Source: Candidatus Borrarchaeum weybense
GTDB taxonomy: Archaea > Asgardarchaeota > Sifarchaeia > Borrarchaeales > Borrarchaeaceae
Assembly (NCBI GenBank): GCA_019057385.1
Contig: JAHQJS010000004.1
Span: 946,727 to 1,010,726 of the forward strand
Length of the DNA stretch: 64,000 nucleotides
Direction: 5' to 3'
Below are positions 40,594-60,666 of the stretch, piece after piece. The notes below the pieces were generated by a model, which had not been told where the DNA came from, made no database searches, and was given only the letters and a program-made list of their open reading frames with translations. Position numbers and translations under genes: made by a program. The number at the start of each line of letters is the position of its first letter. Positions within the stretch are counted from its first letter, which is position 1.

Positions 40594-41202
40594 GTGAGTG
40601 AAATCAAAGTATTTCGCGCAGAAAAAGATGATTTAGTAGAATTATCAGATTTTGATGGGACTTTTACGAATGGAGACTGTTATCTTGTTGATACTGGTGA
40701 ACTTGGAAAAATCTATGTGTGGCTGGGCTCAGAGTGTTCAGTTGATGAGAAATTTCTGAGTAGTGTATCTTCTACAATGTTAGACCAAAGCCGTGGAGGA
40801 TTGCCAGACATAGATACAATCGAGGAAGGTTCAGAACCTCCAGAATTTCGAAATCTCTTCTCACGTTTCCGCGTAGTCGAGGGAGATATCCCAGGATTTC
40901 TGGAAGCGCCACCAGCTGAAACCTTTGTCAAGAAGATGTATCAAGTTGCTGGTGAAACATTTGGAGAAGTTGAAATGGCTCAAATTACTGTGAGTGATGA
41001 CAATCTTGATTCTGGCAATGTATACCTAATTGAGACACTAGAAACGATTTTTATTTGGATTGGCAAAGGAGCATCAGGAATGGAAAAATTCCGTGGAAAT
41101 GTTATGGCTAGAAAACTTAGAAGTAACCGAGGTGGTCGACCGAAGGTTCGCAGAATAGAAGAAGGACAAGAAACTGATGAATTTAGAAGTGTTTTTGATT
41201 AA
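40594..41202 (+). CDS. Two-domain gelsolin-like protein (paralog 1)
   Basis: GDCYLVDTGELGKIYVWLGSECSVDEKFLSSV and SGNVYLIETLETIFIWIGKGASGMEKFRGNV; GTG start preceded by GAGGAGG. Confidence 0.88.
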   Translation: MSEIKVFRAEKDDLVELSDFDGTFTNGDCYLVDTGELGKIYVWLGSECSVDEKFLSSVSSTMLDQSRGGLPDIDTIEEGSEPPEFRNLFSRFRVVEGDIPGFLEAPPAETFVKKMYQVAGETFGEVEMAQITVSDDNLDSGNVYLIETLETIFIWIGKGASGMEKFRGNVMARKLRSNRGGRPKVRRIEEGQETDEFRSVFD

Positions 41203-41254
41203 TACCTTTAGAGTAGTTAATTAACTCTTAATTAAGAAGGAGGAAACGAGTAAA

Positions 41255-41854
41255 ATGAAAGTGTTCCGTGTGGAAAAAGGAGAACTTGTAGAAATGCCCG
41301 AAGGTTTTAGCGAGTTTACAAGAGGCGATTCCTATTTAGTCGACGCGGGTTTAAAGATGTATTGCTGGATTGGAAGTGAATCAAGTGTCGATGAGAAATT
41401 CCTTACTTCAGTTAGTTCAGTCCTACTAGACCAAAGTCGTGGAGGAGAAGCTGATATCGATACCGTAGACGAAGGAGAAGAACCCCCAGAATTTCGAAGT
41501 CTCTTTGAGAATTTTATGGTAGTTGAAGGAGATCAGGCGGCATCCATATTAAAGAAACCTCCACCAACAACGTTCGCGAACAAGATGTACCGCATCGCCG
41601 GCGAGACATTTGAAGAAGTAGAATTGGCAAGAGTTCCTCTCACTAAGAATAATTTAGACTCTGGCAACTGCTATATCGTAGAAACGCTGGACACAATCTA
41701 CCTGTGGATCGGCAATGGAGCTTCTGCGAAAGAGAAGTTCAAAGCTAACATAGTGGCTAGGAAACTACGAAGTGATCGAGGAGGTCGACCTAGGGTTCTT
41801 AGAATCGAGGAAGGTGACAAAGTAACACAAGCTTTTGAAGAAGCCTTCGAATAA
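41255..41854 (+). CDS. Two-domain gelsolin-like protein (paralog 2)
   Basis: GDSYLVDAGLKMYCWIGSESSVDEKFLTSV and SGNCYIVETLDTIYLWIGNGASAKEKFKANI. Confidence 0.88.
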   Translation: MKVFRVEKGELVEMPEGFSEFTRGDSYLVDAGLKMYCWIGSESSVDEKFLTSVSSVLLDQSRGGEADIDTVDEGEEPPEFRSLFENFMVVEGDQAASILKKPPPTTFANKMYRIAGETFEEVELARVPLTKNNLDSGNCYIVETLDTIYLWIGNGASAKEKFKANIVARKLRSDRGGRPRVLRIEEGDKVTQAFEEAFE

Positions 41855-53257: not shown

Positions 53258-54784
53258 ATGATGATTCAGACCATCAAACTCCGAATGTATCCTGATGAGG
53301 CACAAGAATATCAACTCCATGAAATCTTTACCATCTATAACCGGGTGAAACGCATTGGTTACAACCTGCTGTTTCATAACGAGGACTACATGGTAGAGCG
53401 CTTCGATGAGGGTAAAACCATCCAACAGTGTTTGATGAGTCTGTGCCACAATAACCCTTATGTCAATACTATCTTGATTGACAACAAGGCGCAACTGGAA
53501 TCACAAAAGACGTGGCTGGAAAAACGACGCACACGCATGACACAGCAGCTACAAGTCATCATCAAGAAAATCAAAACAATAAAAGAGAAAGATACACATG
53601 ACAGACGGTTGAAGGGCTTATACGCCCGTAGATCCTCAATAATGGCTAAACTGCGCAATTTACACCTCGAACCTGTGGTATTTGGCACTAAGAAATTATT
53701 CAGAGACAGAATACGCGGCAACATAAGTAGGGAAGAGTTCAGGATACGACGGGATTCTTCTTTCAGTTGCATTGGAAAGCAACAGGGAAAAAACCTGAAC
53801 ATTAAAGTATTGCCCAGAAAAACCGTCAAGATACGCACCTTTTCCAAGCAAAAAGGATGCAAATGGCTGATCATTTCCCTTTCCGTAAACTCTGTGCAGG
53901 AAAAATGGTTTCAAGATATTTTTAATTCCGACAAATACACGGTGACCGTGAAACGGAAGTTTTTCAAGGGGACGGTGCGTTATTTTGTCCATGTTTCTTA
54001 TGAAATTCCAGAACCTGTACCACGTTGTGGCTACGAACATGGTGCCATCGGATTAGATTTCAACTATAATTTTGTTGCCCTGACCAATGTCGATCAACAT
54101 GGTACATTACTCTCTTATCATACCATTTCGTTTTGCAACCTCCACAGCTATCGAACAAATAAACGTAGCGATTACATCTCTTATAAGATGGATAAAGTCG
54201 TCAATTATTGCATCAATAAGGGCAAGGGCATCGTGGTCGAGGACTTACAATTCGGCCAAGAGTTTTACTATAATAAAAAACGCAACCGAAAATTCAGCAA
54301 TATGAAGACCACTGCCTTGCAGCTGTTAGAGAGAAAATGCAAAAAGCGAGGTGTGTCCTTTCGAAAGGTATTTCCTGGATATACCTCCATAATCGGGAGG
54401 TATAAGTATTCAGGATTACATAATTTGTCAACACATCACTTAGCAAGTTATGTAATAGCTCGAAGGGGTTTAGGTTTCAGGGAAGTCATTCCAGCCATCT
54501 ACGATTGGGTGTCCTCACAAGTCGGGGAGTTCATAGAACCCCGTTTGAAACAGGATAGTCCTTACCGTAGATGGTCGATGATCCATGACCTCTTCAAGCA
54601 CAGTGGGATAACTTCCTTCAAGGCTGCCGAAATACTTAAAAAAACAGTATTAATGAGGCATGTTTTGCACTCGGTGACGAGCGCACAGCCCGATAACCTT
54701 AAGGCTGGTTCTTCCTTCTTGAAAGCAGGGAGAATTGATGATTATTATAAAGTGTGGAATTTTATAACTAATCCCACATTATAA
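53258..54784 (+). CDS. TnpB-related protein lacking a zinc finger
   Basis: GAIGLDFNYNFVALTNVD (RuvC-I-like), KGIVVEDLQF (RuvC-II-like), STHHLASYVIARRGLGF in place of the usual RuvC-III; no CxxC pairs. Confidence 0.75.
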   Translation: MMIQTIKLRMYPDEAQEYQLHEIFTIYNRVKRIGYNLLFHNEDYMVERFDEGKTIQQCLMSLCHNNPYVNTILIDNKAQLESQKTWLEKRRTRMTQQLQVIIKKIKTIKEKDTHDRRLKGLYARRSSIMAKLRNLHLEPVVFGTKKLFRDRIRGNISREEFRIRRDSSFSCIGKQQGKNLNIKVLPRKTVKIRTFSKQKGCKWLIISLSVNSVQEKWFQDIFNSDKYTVTVKRKFFKGTVRYFVHVSYEIPEPVPRCGYEHGAIGLDFNYNFVALTNVDQHGTLLSYHTISFCNLHSYRTNKRSDYISYKMDKVVNYCINKGKGIVVEDLQFGQEFYYNKKRNRKFSNMKTTALQLLERKCKKRGVSFRKVFPGYTSIIGRYKYSGLHNLSTHHLASYVIARRGLGFREVIPAIYDWVSSQVGEFIEPRLKQDSPYRRWSMIHDLFKHSGITSFKAAEILKKTVLMRHVLHSVTSAQPDNLKAGSSFLKAGRIDDYYKVWNFITNPTL

Positions 54785-54918: not shown

Positions 54919-55326
54919 GTGAATAAACAAACTGATTTACAAAATAATAAGGAACTTTATGGCGTTTTCAATGAATTAAGGAACTATTTAGCCGGTATGG
55001 CTGCTGGTATGACTCGTGATGAAAGTTTAATACAAGAATTGATACCTCTTCTCTTTTGTAAAATTTATACTGAAAAAAATATAGATTTGAAAGATAAGTT
55101 TCGAGCAGAATCAAAAGAATCAGCCGGTGTTATAAAAAGGCGGATTTCAGCAATTTTCAAAATGGTTAAGAAAGAATTTGAGGATATTTTTGAAGAAGAG
55201 GAAAAAATTGATCTAAAGGCGGAATCAGTTAAGTTCATTGTCAGCAAGCTGCAAAATCATGATCTAACGACGGTGGATCAAGATGCAATCGGAAATCTGT
55301 TTGAATCCTTCCTTGGTCGATCGTAG
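54919..55326 (+). pseudogene. Truncated HsdM-like N-terminal fragment
   Basis: AGMAAGMTRDESLIQELIPLLFCKIYTEKN...VDQDAIGNLFESFLGRS aligns with VVGITRDEALIQEIMNLLFCKIYDELN...VDSNAIGDAFEVFIGKA in 58093..60666; stops at the insert. Confidence 0.75.
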
Positions 55327-55523
55327 CCAAAGATACCAATTTGCTCGTAGCTAAAACAACTAATACTGATACTAAAATGTTACTCAAGCAGATTTGATTG
55401 TTTTGTATAATTAGTAGATGGTATCTAGTGTACAACTGATTTTCTCATTATTTACAAACAACTAAAATCTCAAATAACGTCTATAAACCACGAAAATTTA
55501 CTATCATACTTTTACTGTGGTCT

Positions 55524-55566
55524 CTCTCTAGTAAAATATATTATATTTCATAATTTTTCTAGAGAG
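55524..55566. promoter_or_regulatory. 8-bp inverted repeat CTCTCTAG...CTAGAGAG flanking an AT-rich promoter-like tract
   Basis: Perfect IR just upstream of the RAMP-like gene. Confidence 0.45.
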
Positions 55567-55595
55567 CATGTATGTATTCTATCGAGGTTGTAAAC

Positions 55596-56408
55596 ATGAA
55601 ACAAACAAAAAAACAGATCGTGGTTCGTGCCTATACTCCAATAGCTAAACCTCATAATGTGTCTATTCAAAAAAATTCCACTATGCTTCTTCTAGGTGAA
55701 ATTTCTTATGAAAGTGGTTCGAAAGCATTCAATACAAAACTGTATTACATTAAAGGGGTACGCGGAATGTTGAGGCATGCCGCCATGTCTCTTGCTCAAG
55801 ATTGTGGTATAGAAGTCTGCCATTCCAGTGAAAAAACTGAGCTCAAAGATGGGACTCAACTCGTTCCTTCTGGTTTCCATCCTCTTGGCTCATGTGATCC
55901 TCCTTGTATTCTCCGAAGAATCTTTGGCACCTTCCGCGAAGAATCCTCAATCTCCGTCTTAGTTGATCCTATTGCTTCGATAAAGCATAAAGAATACACT
56001 ACTGAGTTACCTGCTCAAAAAGTCCATATCGCCACTGAAAATAGGATAGCCCTTACTTATGATAGAACGGCTATTCAAGATTTTCGTGAAAGCTATTTCA
56101 GCGGGTATTTTAACTTCGTAATCGACATCACAAATTTAACCGATGATGAGATCAAGTTCATCGTGGAATCGTTGCTCTACATCGAAACACTTGGCAGTGG
56201 CAAAAATGCTGGTTATGGATATATCAAGATTCTAGAGGTCGAAATCCAGAATGTACATGTTTTGCGAAACATCACGATGGATAACGGAGTATATAAGATC
56301 ATTGAAGAAATCGAAGTAAAACCGATACTACTTGAAAACATCGAAGAATGGAGAAACGCGTATATGAGAGAAAATCTGATAAAAATTGAACAACAACACT
56401 CCACTTGA
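55596..56408 (+). CDS. RAMP-superfamily (Cas7/Csm3/Csf2-like) protein
   Basis: IKGVRGMLRHAAM; CILRRIFGTFREESSISVLVDPIAS; Gly-rich loop ETLGSGKNAGYGYIKI; ATG 55596 preceded by GAGGT. Confidence 0.6.
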   Translation: MKQTKKQIVVRAYTPIAKPHNVSIQKNSTMLLLGEISYESGSKAFNTKLYYIKGVRGMLRHAAMSLAQDCGIEVCHSSEKTELKDGTQLVPSGFHPLGSCDPPCILRRIFGTFREESSISVLVDPIASIKHKEYTTELPAQKVHIATENRIALTYDRTAIQDFRESYFSGYFNFVIDITNLTDDEIKFIVESLLYIETLGSGKNAGYGYIKILEVEIQNVHVLRNITMDNGVYKIIEEIEVKPILLENIEEWRNAYMRENLIKIEQQHST

Positions 56409-56482: not shown

Positions 56483-56610
56483 AAGACGGAATACTTCTTG
56501 TAATCTGCAAGAAGCACGTTCTTATGTGAGAGACAGTTATTATAGAGGTCCCAAACCTCGGTTGATGGGGAAAGAATGTCCGGCAGAGGGATGAATAAAA
56601 CGATAACTAC
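56483..56610 (+). ncRNA. Structured repeat RNA element, copy A
   Basis: Aligns with 57573-57698; hairpin CTTCTTG/CAAGAAG; CACGTTCTT; AGAGGTCCCAAACCTC...GGGGA possible pseudoknot. Confidence 0.65.
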
Positions 56611-56708
56611 TTTACCAAAAGGGTTACAAAAGCCGTTACTTTCCCATGGTCTTATATCTCCCGTTTAAATGACAAAAAATTTAAAACATCCTATAGTGGT
56701 GCTGAAAA

Positions 56709-57512
56709 ATGCCAAAAAGATGGTTTAAATTATCTGGTGTAACTAAAACTCCAGTGATCACGAAAAAAAGACATTTTTTTCATAAATTTGGGGTAATTAC
56801 CATTAATGGTAGTCCTAGAGTGTTCGGTAAACTTACGAAAGGTGAGAGACGCGCTCCTATGACCTTTAGGGCATGGCATGGAACAGTAGAGTTTATTATT
56901 CCTCACTCAAAACTCGAACCAGCGCTCGCTATTGAAAGTATCGGGAGATATACCCATGAAGGGATGGGGCAAATACTGTGGACAAGTGTAAAACAACTCC
57001 CCAAAAGACCTCTCTATACTCCAAAAAAAATTAGGATTCGTAAAATGCTCCCAAAACTTTCAGATACATGGGAAAAACTAATGATCGCCATGTTACTACA
57101 TGATTTCGTGAATACTGAAAAACATTCCAGCAAAATTTACTCTGAGGTTACTATCGTTGATGACGACGTATATAATCTAGCGAAAAATCATCATAATTAC
57201 GAGATGGATGAAAGGGAATTGCCCCTCCTCGCTACCCTCCAACATTATGACCAAGTTTCTTCCTCAATTTCTCGAAAGTTTAGGTGGTCTACCTCCTCAC
57301 GTTATCGTGCAGATATTCAAGAGAAAATAGATTTTGATACACTAAAAAGAGAGATAGAATTGAGAAAACATTCTCTTTATGCTCTTTATAGCTTCATCTA
57401 TAAGTCTCAAGTACTTAATGAGATCAATGAGGCAATAGAATTTGGTTTCTCTTCTTTAAAAAACCATCTTCTTCTGATGGTCAATCTCTTTCTTGATGAC
57501 CTTTATGGATGA
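56709..57512 (+). CDS. Cas6-like (RAMP half) protein with C-terminal HD-like domain
   Basis: AWHGTVEFIIPHSKLEPALAIESIGRYTHEGMGQILW resembles a Cas6 C-terminal half with Gly-rich loop; LMIAMLLHDFVNTEKHSSKI ... NHHNY ... LQHYDQVSSSI resembles a Cas10/Cas3-type HD domain. Confidence 0.5.
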   Translation: MPKRWFKLSGVTKTPVITKKRHFFHKFGVITINGSPRVFGKLTKGERRAPMTFRAWHGTVEFIIPHSKLEPALAIESIGRYTHEGMGQILWTSVKQLPKRPLYTPKKIRIRKMLPKLSDTWEKLMIAMLLHDFVNTEKHSSKIYSEVTIVDDDVYNLAKNHHNYEMDERELPLLATLQHYDQVSSSISRKFRWSTSSRYRADIQEKIDFDTLKREIELRKHSLYALYSFIYKSQVLNEINEAIEFGFSSLKNHLLLMVNLFLDDLYG

Positions 57513-57572
57513 GTTTTTATGTCACAAGTTATGGTGTTGCAATCCCTCTTTACAGATAAATATACAGGATGC

Positions 57573-57698
57573 AAGACGGACTGTTCATCGCATATCGCGA
57601 TGAACACGTTCTTGTACATGAGACTGAACCCGAGAGGTCCCACGCCTCAGATGACGGGAATGGATGACAGGCCAAAGGACGAGAAAAGTGATAAATAC
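57573..57698 (+). ncRNA. Structured repeat RNA element, copy B
   Basis: Aligns with 56483-56610; hairpin TGTTCATCGC/GCGATGAACA at the same position as copy A but different sequence; GAGGTCCCACGCCTC...GGGA possible pseudoknot. Confidence 0.65.
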
Positions 57699-57800
57699 GG
57701 ACACTTTTTCACGCCAAGAAACGTTGTCAGATTCGCTATTACCATTAATGATCCTAGGAATGGTAATGGCATCCTCCCTATTTTTTTATTTTTTCAATAA
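57695..57800 (+). pseudogene. Second fragment of the broken HsdM-like gene
   Basis: KYGHFFTPRNVVRFAITINDPR matches GQFFTPRNVVRMAVEILDPQ in 58093..60666 and continues from where 54919..55326 stops. Confidence 0.7.
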
Positions 57801-58092: not shown

Positions 58093-60666
58093 ATGCCGAC
58101 ACGAACGAAATCAGTTGAAAAGGTTTCCTTTGCTGAGGAACGCGTCAAAGGACAGATGAGACTTATTGATTTTATTTCTGGAAGTTTAGTTGAAGCCACA
58201 CCTGAAGAGGTAGAGGCTGTTCAGGTCTTTTCTCGCAGATTGGTCGAAGAGTTTGGATATGATAAAAATCAAATCCAAACAAGACCTCAATTTAAAATCC
58301 GGGGCGCACCGTCAGGTAAACCAAAATATCCTGTTGACATAGCCGTCTTTAATGACGAAAAAAAAACCCATGGCAACTTGTTTATGATTGTCGAATGCAA
58401 ACGAAAGACTCGTCGAGATGGAGAAAAGCAACTGAAAATATATTTGGGACTATCAAGTGCTCAGATAGGAGTTTGGTTCAATGGTAGTGAGCACCTCTAC
58501 CTACAGAAGATTCTCGACAAAGAGGGAAATGTAACCTACAATTTAATTCCCACGATTCCCAAAAAAGGACAAAGAATTGAAGATATTGGCAAATACAAGC
58601 GAAAAAACCTGACGAAACCGAGTAATATAATCTCTTTGTTCAAAGATATTAAGAATCACTTATACGGAAACGTCGTAGGAATTACTCGTGATGAAGCTTT
58701 AATACAAGAAATAATGAATCTACTATTCTGCAAAATATACGATGAACTGAATACTGCTCCGGAAGATGATGTTGCTTTCAGAGTAGGAATCAATGAAGAC
58801 TCGAATCAGGTCAAGGAGAGAATCTCTGAGCTATTCAAGTTTGTGAAAATAGCATACGAGGATATCTTCGAAGAGCGAGACGAATTACGTCTTGATCCTG
58901 ACTCACTTTGTTATGTTGTTGGCGAATTGCAACCTTATAGTCTGTCAGAAGTAGATAGTAACGCAATAGGCGATGCGTTCGAGGTATTCATTGGAAAGGC
59001 GCTCAAGGGTGCCGAGGGGCAGTTTTTTACACCTCGAAATGTGGTTCGAATGGCTGTTGAGATACTTGACCCACAACCCTACGAACATATCGTTGATCCT
59101 GCATGCGGTAGCGGAGGTTTCTTAATATTTGCAATGGAACATGTGTGGCAAAAACTTAAGATTGAAGCTAAAAGAAAGAATTGGTCAACCGAAATGCTAC
59201 AGAAAAGAAAGACAGAAATTGCGAGCAAATTTTTTGGTGGAATTGACAAGGACATGTTCCTAGCAAAAGTCACAAAGGCTTACATGGCACTAATAGGTGA
59301 CGGTAGAGGCGGAATATTCTGTGAAAACTCTTTAGAATTCCCAGAAAAATGGCAGGCGACTACCCAACAAAGAATAATGCTTGGTAAATTTGATGTTCTA
59401 TTTACTAATCCTCCCTTCGGATCAAAGATCACTATCAAGAAATCATTGTATTCTCAGTTCGAGTTAAGCTTTAAATGGAATAAAAACAAAAAAACTGGTA
59501 AGTGGAAGAAGGGTAATAAACAGGCAGACAAAAGACCACCGCAAGTTCTGTTTATTGAGCGATGTTTACAATTTCTTGCTCCAAACGGAAGAATGGCAAT
59601 CGTTTTACCTGATGGTTTATTAAGCAATCCCAGCGATGGTTATATTACACAGTATATCAAGGATAATGCTGAGATCATTGGACTCGTCGATTTACCAATG
59701 AGTACTTTCTTACCTAATACACCCACGAAGACACATATTTTGTTCTTAAGAAAGAAAAAACCTGAGGGGAACTATCCAATCTTTATGGCCTACGCGAAAA
59801 CTTGTGGACATGATAAGAGAGGGAAGATCATCTATAAAGTCGGTGAAGCTGGTCAAAATGTTGTTGATGATGACATTTATGAAATATCAAAGCATTTTGC
59901 TCGCAGATATGAAAGAGTTAATAAATATGATAGGAAGGGATTTCTTGTTTATCTTGACGATTTAAAGTCAGGTATACTGTTACCGAAATATTATAATCCA
60001 GAATTGAATGAGAGATTAGAAGCGTATCGACAGACTGGTGAATATGACGTTTATTCTATAGGTGATTTAGTTAAACTGGGAAAGTTGTGGATAAGGAGAG
60101 GCCATGAAGTCGGATCTGTGAATTATGGAACTGGCGATATCCCGTTTATTCGGACTTCGGAAATATCAAATTGGGAACTAACTGCCGATCCTACTCATTG
60201 TTTAGCCGAGGATATATACGAGGAATACAAGGATCGCCAGAAACTAAAAAAAGATGATATCTTAATTATAAATGATGGTACGTACCTAATGGGTCGAACC
60301 GCGATACTTTCTGAAAATGATACAAAAATTGTTGTTCAAAGTCACATCAGAATTCTTACAGTCTTAGACCGAGAATTTATTCACCCTTATCTTTTGTTGT
60401 TCCTCTTAGGATTGAGAATTGTTCAAGAACAGATTGAGTCGAAATCCTTTAGACAAGCTACTATCTCTACTCTAGGAAACAGACTTCTTGAAATCAGAAT
60501 CCCACTACCAAAAGATGAAAAAGTAAGAAAAGAAATTGTTGAGCAAGTTTCTAACATAGTTGAGAAGCGCTCGATGCTAAGACATAAGGCGATGAATATT
60601 GAATTCAATGGAACATCAGAGAGTGTTATGGGTATAAAAAACAAGGCAACCTTGGGAAATCTATAG
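58093..60666 (+). CDS. Single-chain restriction-modification protein: HSDR_N-like nuclease + N6-adenine methylase + HsdS-like target recognition domain
   Basis: PVDIAVF...FMIVECKRKTRRDGEKQLKIY (PD-D/ExK-like); VDPACGSGGFLIFA and FTNPPFGS (methylase); GDIPFIRTSEISNWEL...QATISTLGNRLLEIRIPLP (S domain). Confidence 0.85.
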   Translation: MPTRTKSVEKVSFAEERVKGQMRLIDFISGSLVEATPEEVEAVQVFSRRLVEEFGYDKNQIQTRPQFKIRGAPSGKPKYPVDIAVFNDEKKTHGNLFMIVECKRKTRRDGEKQLKIYLGLSSAQIGVWFNGSEHLYLQKILDKEGNVTYNLIPTIPKKGQRIEDIGKYKRKNLTKPSNIISLFKDIKNHLYGNVVGITRDEALIQEIMNLLFCKIYDELNTAPEDDVAFRVGINEDSNQVKERISELFKFVKIAYEDIFEERDELRLDPDSLCYVVGELQPYSLSEVDSNAIGDAFEVFIGKALKGAEGQFFTPRNVVRMAVEILDPQPYEHIVDPACGSGGFLIFAMEHVWQKLKIEAKRKNWSTEMLQKRKTEIASKFFGGIDKDMFLAKVTKAYMALIGDGRGGIFCENSLEFPEKWQATTQQRIMLGKFDVLFTNPPFGSKITIKKSLYSQFELSFKWNKNKKTGKWKKGNKQADKRPPQVLFIERCLQFLAPNGRMAIVLPDGLLSNPSDGYITQYIKDNAEIIGLVDLPMSTFLPNTPTKTHILFLRKKKPEGNYPIFMAYAKTCGHDKRGKIIYKVGEAGQNVVDDDIYEISKHFARRYERVNKYDRKGFLVYLDDLKSGILLPKYYNPELNERLEAYRQTGEYDVYSIGDLVKLGKLWIRRGHEVGSVNYGTGDIPFIRTSEISNWELTADPTHCLAEDIYEEYKDRQKLKKDDILIINDGTYLMGRTAILSENDTKIVVQSHIRILTVLDREFIHPYLLLFLLGLRIVQEQIESKSFRQATISTLGNRLLEIRIPLPKDEKVRKEIVEQVSNIVEKRSMLRHKAMNIEFNGTSESVMGIKNKATLGNL

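Follow-up and report, generated by a model that had tools for sequence, protein, structure and literature searches.

Candidate guide RNAs of a probable Cas7- and Cas1-encoding mobile element in Borrarchaeota

Two similar sequences, A and B, lie on either side of a gene for a conserved protein in the window (the whole 64,000-nucleotide stretch of the Candidatus Borrarchaeum weybense genome analysed here), and they raise the question of what such a repeated element is and what it does. The original prediction described A (56483-56610) and B (57573-57698) as homologous structured RNA elements. Both are present at these positions, and the covariance model sets the conserved units, both on the plus strand, at 56483-56604 for A (85 bits, E=1.5e-17) and 57573-57692 for B (129 bits), the earlier repeat ends having lain slightly further 3ʹ. 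Loci examined carry L-numbers, G000 is the window's genome and G001-G004 are its relatives; the window locus is L009, whose coordinates become window positions when 53773 is added (A, L009 2710-2831; B, the query of the DNA search, L009 3800-3919). Each unit consists of a scaffold of about 120 nt followed by about 36-42 nt that differ from copy to copy. On the best reading of the evidence given below, A and B function as guide-RNA scaffolds of a mobile element that encodes Cas7 and Cas1 proteins, a role that the original prediction did not see.

A structured RNA family

A covarying hairpin had been proposed from the two copies in the window, and its covariation becomes significant once further copies are collected, the very test that had been suggested. 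Hairpin 1 occupies columns 11-20/26-35 of alignment A4; eight of its nine pairs show two-sided changes, double-change cells number 42, where shuffles give 13.3 +/- 2.7, and 97% of the cells are paired, a value that drops to 40-57% once the partner is slid. The proposed H-type pseudoknot stands in part: the GAGG/CCTC pairing is a real, nearly invariant stem, whereas the TCCC/GGGA pairing is compatible with the alignment and unproven, with three of its four pairs forming in most copies, the fourth failing in 14 of 23, and marginal covariation, so that we do not count the pseudoknot among the established features. The unit also includes a long-range helix of seven nearly invariant pairs, which joins CGUUCUU to the GGGACG close to the 3ʹ end, and a GAC/GUC hairpin that closes the unit. 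The scaffolds can be translated into similar peptides in places, yet the reading frames shift and the stems co-vary, which agrees with the earlier view that A and B are non-coding; no tRNA was detected.

The family is far larger than the pair from which it was recognised. The window's genome holds 25 copies, far beyond chance, both by DNA search (E down to 3e-61) and by a covariance model built from 23 of them, and the same model finds 88 copies across five Borrarchaeota genomes (genus and class), including 20 in G003 and 33 in G004; a further 54 genomes of the phylum gave none. Such a model search and a comparison with Rfam had both been called for; the former recovered the family, and the latter gave nothing above the gathering score and chance-level matches only (up to E=10), so that no known RNA family in Rfam accounts for it. 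No relative was found in viral contigs.

Many copies are solo RNAs, apart from any protein gene of the element. The same solo RNA stands at the 3ʹ end of a prolyl-tRNA synthetase-like gene in two species (L020 4519-4617 and L168 3102-3200) and is an old insertion. Two scaffolds just 39 nt apart at L161 3202-3480 are the nearest approach to an array. The 33 copies in G004 (L130-L157) occur with almost no intact RAMP or HD gene in a genome that is 80% complete, and many of their guides start TATAAAAGT and have no coding target. In another Asgard family (family g34, L075-L078), a short RNA-like element follows the HD-like gene and runs into the neighbouring gene; it comprises CCGTT, a hairpin with four different complementary stems (covarying) and then a second hairpin, and it possibly serves that lineage as its guide RNA.

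The element proteins and the window locus

In full copies the gene order is a protein of about 1,330 aa, a RAMP protein, RNA A, an HD-like protein and RNA B. The first of these joins a Hel308-like helicase to a Cas1 domain at the C terminus (Pfam Cas1 3.9e-9, NCBIfam Cas1 2.6e-7), and E..H..DFRE is conserved in eight copies; E, H and D/E residues are those expected for Cas1 catalysis. The window RAMP protein (55572-56408, plus strand, likely start ATG at 55596) matches Pfam RAMPs at E=5e-7 and the Csm3 profile at 5e-8, and a fold search with its AF2 model returned type IV-A3 effector chains, Csm3 and Cas7-11 as best matches (E to 5.6e-6), pointing to a Cas7-like protein. The second conserved protein (56709-57512, plus strand; Pfam HD E=0.022, below cutoff) combines an N-terminal beta domain with a C-terminal helical HD-like domain (LLHDFV.T..H.SKIY..NHH..YD) in which H131, D132, H139, H161, H162, D167 and D181 are invariant. 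Its N-terminal domain gave weak, non-significant RAMP/Cas6-like fold matches from a model of moderate quality, and comparison of the protein with PDB sequences and structures gave no significant match, nor was any family recognised by sequence. The HD-like protein occurs in 20 of the 295 related genomes searched, and wherever there is enough flanking sequence to judge, fragments excepted, the RAMP gene adjoins its gene. One divergent pair (39% and 36% identical; L024 5631-7275) has no recognisable RNA. In family g40 the pair lies directly upstream of the EF-2 gene in two genomes (L072 2693-6063, L073 5706-9061), and in loci related to it a divergent LAGLIDADG-domain protein stands beside the pair (L067 10684-12258).

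The window copy is not full. To its left, on the plus strand, a 5ʹ fragment of the host gene hsdM (54919-55326; 42% identical to residues 169-303 of the product of the hsdM gene at 58093) ends in ...FESFLGRS, immediately before the motif encoded by guide B. The left end of the element presumably lies within 55327-55571, where no terminal inverted repeat was found; full copies have the helicase-Cas1 gene at this place and the window copy has none. RNA A is followed by guide A (56605-56650, 3ʹ limit approximate), and RNA B by guide B (57693-57734), whose in-frame translation is KYGHFFTPRNVVRFA, a conserved motif of hsdM, and then by a terminator-like hairpin read from the sequence, ATTACCATT...AATGGTAAT (57735-57770), all on the plus strand. 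A complete hsdM-hsdS gene follows at 58093-60666 (plus strand; Pfam N6_Mtase, HSDR_N_2). Guide B and the protospacer-like stretch of this gene (59008-59055) disagree at each of the seven every-6th positions and at six others. By analogy with the architecture of L027 and L028 described below, the 5ʹ part of this gene up to about 59055 is read as an element-borne replacement, and an architecture shared with those copies would explain why an hsdM fragment lies to the left and the complete gene to the right.

Just left of the hsdM fragment and outside the element, a degenerate TnpB/Cas12f-like ORF of 508 aa (53258-54784) has sub-threshold Pfam matches; in the ORF lists of the element loci, TnpB and IscB nucleases are absent from the element. 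Elsewhere, at 40594-41854, the window encodes two gelsolin-like proteins, of a kind typical of Asgard archaea.

Guides to the element's own promoter and to host genes

In class 1 effectors every sixth guide nucleotide is flipped out on the Cas7 backbone and left unpaired. In eight copies of the element, the stretch 3ʹ of RNA A has its match immediately 5ʹ of that element's own RAMP gene, and the mismatches concentrate at guide positions 9, 15, 21, 27, 33 and 39 (35 of 48 cells, against 10 of 224 elsewhere; Fisher p=2e-24, a pooled value that overstates independence since the copies are related). This is the pattern expected of a functional guide under selection, because the flipped nucleotides do not pair; a simple duplicate of the promoter would leave the every-6-nt mismatches unexplained. 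The signal is present in single copies (L026, p=6e-5; L029, p=1e-4; the divergent L065, p=3e-4) and is non-significant in L025 taken alone (p=0.095), which has few mismatches. Moreover, guide and promoter co-vary between elements: four divergent guide groups match their own promoters at 25-28 of 28 non-flipped positions, compared with 12-20 for the promoters of other groups. The match covers the core promoter, including a TATA-like sequence, which would not be expected in transcripts, so that guide A is likely to target DNA and not RNA. For the window's own guide A no target was found within the loci examined, and the RAMP promoter of the window is non-homologous to that of other copies, which would fit a copy in decay.

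The guides that follow RNA B and the solo RNAs match instead the host gene at the insertion site. In 19 of 26 distinct genes the third codon positions fall at guide positions divisible by 3 (p=4e-5), a count restricted to guides lying over or next to an ORF of at least about 140 aa, with orthologues de-duplicated by eye; seven of the 26 genes are out of register. In this register the flipped guide positions land on wobble bases. Where the RNA is sense to the gene, ATG or GTG occurs at guide position 10 (four to five loci: L158, L160, L161, L164, L030, plus orthologues) and the scaffold tail GGUGAU is positioned like the ribosome site of that gene; where it is antisense, a stop codon begins at position 0 (from scaffold GTCA or GTTA) or 9. 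Within the loci examined, no coding target was found for several solo RNAs of G004.

Since the tail can serve as the ribosome site of the next gene or supply its stop codon, the RNAs might be thought cis-acting leader or terminator elements of mRNAs, in the manner of riboswitches. We consider this very improbable, as it is at odds with the 6-nt periodic matches between guide and target, with the co-variation of guide and promoter between elements, and with the antisense orientation of some copies to the neighbouring gene.

Insertion, restoration and kinship with known systems

Comparison of the loci with G003, G002 and G001, in which the G003 allele serves as a proxy for the ancestral allele, revealed empty sites in congeneric genomes and insertions of 7-10 kb with an edge at the boundary of guide and target. 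At L027, 6.9 kb are missing from G003, with an 8-bp overlap, and the right flank starts exactly at protospacer position 1; insertions of 10.56 kb at L026 and 10.3 kb at L028 are likewise missing from a relative. The reciprocal case is L066, where a 6.9-kb solo-RNA element in G003 is missing from G000 and the right flank starts from guide position 9. The cargo of this element (L066 2462-9392) includes cytosine methyltransferase-like, DNA glycosylase-like and EVE-like proteins, named by eye, and no Cas genes, which makes it non-autonomous, with cargo that may serve defence. Left flanks end at guide positions 6-9 where the guide can be placed, and the right flanks of solo and 3ʹ-end cases start at guide position 9-10 (14 in L010). 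Judged against the empty sites, the guide is the sequence flanking the right end of the element in L066, L064 and L011.

This placement of the scaffold at the right edge of insertions is what would be seen if the repeats were DNA ends recognised by an integrase and the RNA were incidental. That explanation has very little probability: RNA A lies inside the element, the helices change by compensation with G-U pairs included, and the periodicity of the guides requires an RNA on a Cas7 backbone. Neither terminal inverted repeats nor constant target duplications were found at the elements examined, which speaks against a simple insertion sequence, and an apparent 114-bp target duplication in L028 proved to be a diverged element-borne copy of the start of the gene.

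On sequence comparison, the element restores the start or end of the gene it enters, sometimes in re-coded form. Against the element-free allele of G003, the L027 guide has one mismatch in 32 positions, at an every-6th one; against the present G000 gene, whose new start comes from the element, it has six in 32. In L028 (an FtsY-like gene) and L025 a diverged 5ʹ gene part lies to the right of the element, and L028 also has a host 5ʹ fragment to the left. Their guides are hardly closer to the G003 allele than to the present gene (7 v 8 mismatches in L028, 9 v 10 in L025), so that the case for re-coding against the guide rests mainly on L027; the L028 and L025 result would be expected if G003 itself had diverged, or if re-coding were no general rule.

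We consider it highly probable that A and B encode guide RNAs of a homing element that is directed by RNA and has Cas7/Cas1 machinery and an autoregulatory guide. The scaffold of the transcribed RNA would lead at its 3ʹ end straight into a guide of about 36-42 nt, and the RNA, the Cas7-like backbone and the HD-like protein would bind one another as probably one unit. Guide A would pair with the Cas7-operon promoter of its own element and thereby mediate autoregulation, while guide B and the solo-RNA guides at the edges of other elements would pair with a conserved host gene, mostly at its first or last codons. The complex would thus be directed to the DNA of an element-free gene copy and promote insertion at the boundary of guide and target, full elements adding the helicase-Cas1 fusion; once inserted, the element would restore the start, the ribosome site, or the last codons and stop of the gene, in some cases as a re-coded copy poorly matched by its own guide.

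The same RNAs could instead be the guides of a non-mobile complex for defence or gene regulation, which, like CreR and natural single-guide RNAs, silences its own promoter and neighbouring genes. The A-guides do match the core promoter, other guides match neighbouring genes, and ARAMP is classed with CRISPR-like systems (PMC12669027); this alternative is nevertheless unlikely in view of the reciprocal empty sites, whose edges coincide with the guide boundary, the intact genes restored at the junction, the many solo RNAs at gene ends and the Cas1 integrase in the element.

How a homing element would be copied is a separate matter, and either Cas1 integration or recombination may be responsible. 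Self-rescuing homing, in which a one-piece guide RNA leads a Cas7-type complex to alleles of conserved genes that lack the element, helicase-Cas1 integrates the element, the re-coded gene end escapes the guide and the RNA family also moves RNA-only cargo elements, seems to us as probable as not. A variant in which the complex merely nicks or cuts the empty allele and homologous recombination copies the element, as with homing endonucleases, Cas1 having another role such as guide capture, we judge to have slightly less than an even chance. It accords with the missing inverted repeats, the variable junction overlaps, the lack of Cas1 in solo elements and the window copy, and the presence of an HD-like nuclease candidate; on the other hand, a helicase-Cas1 with conserved catalytic residues accompanies the full copies, and elements at many unrelated sites require a route to new targets. 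The homing reading has difficulties of its own: a cutting complex sits badly with a promoter guide that targets the element itself, and the absence of terminal repeats and constant duplications, the seven genes out of register, a window copy with neither helicase-Cas1 nor an empty counterpart site, and the window guide A and G004 solo RNAs with no target found all count against it.

The proteins of the element (Cas7-like, HD-like and Hel308-like helicase-Cas1) correspond to those of ARAMP (Asgard RAMP), which reportedly goes back to Makarova et al. 2020. Both share an Asgard host, a Cas7-like RAMP protein, a distinct Cas1 in full copies and the lack of a CRISPR array; ARAMP was published as array-less and mechanistically enigmatic, whereas the present loci add a dedicated guide RNA, targets for the guides and sites of insertion. 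As for the Cas5-like subunit of ARAMP, the N-terminal domain of the second protein has weak RAMP/Cas6-like fold matches. ARAMP has been described as a derived CRISPR system of Asgard archaea, with a distinct Cas1 in most loci and an enigmatic mechanism (2022 review, PMC8730458), and the 2025 classification treats ARAMP and HRAMP as array-less, with no guide described there (PMC12669027). We found no description of an ARAMP guide RNA in open-access papers.

Several better-known systems resemble the element in part. It has in common with class 1 CRISPR-Cas systems the pairing gap at every sixth nucleotide and differs from them in the absence of a repeat-spacer array (no run of three repeats in twelve loci by a crude exact-word test). 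Like the omegaRNA of TnpB and IscB (IS200/IS605, IS607), its RNA is structured, lies at the right edge, carries a flank-derived guide and would recognise the empty site; it differs in lacking a single-protein RuvC/HNH nuclease and in having a Cas7-type 6-nt periodicity, Cas1 and restored gene ends. With type I-F3 CASTs, which are thought to tolerate wobble variation at attachment genes (PMC11406308), it shares a guide to a conserved chromosomal gene, wobble tolerance, insertion beside the target and defence cargo; CASTs, however, are Tn7-like with CRISPR arrays, while here solitary scaffold-guide RNAs are found with insertion at the guide boundary, and no Tn7-like transposition proteins were recognised in the ORF lists, flanking ORFs having been scanned in part. 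Casposons are likewise mobile elements encoding Cas1, but here there are RNA guides and neither inverted repeats nor target duplication, and no ORF of the size of a family B polymerase was found in the best-delimited element. As in CreR and natural single-guide autoregulators, a guide RNA targets the promoter of its own cas operon; the present scaffold shows no recognisable descent from a CRISPR repeat, and the homing guides use it as well.

What is new, on the best reading, is a guide-RNA gene for systems thought to be array-less and guideless, in a layout like that of TnpB and its omegaRNA and with Cas7/Cas1 machinery. According to a 2024 review (PMC11406308), every known case in which CRISPR has been co-opted for transposition concerns a Tn7-like element; if the proposal is true, it represents a further, independent route to RNA-guided mobility. 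It gives ARAMP a candidate guide RNA, targets and a testable role, and it would provide a natural example of a homing element that restores the gene it has entered. By joining Cas7 effectors and Cas1 in one mobile element, it also bears on the origin of CRISPR.
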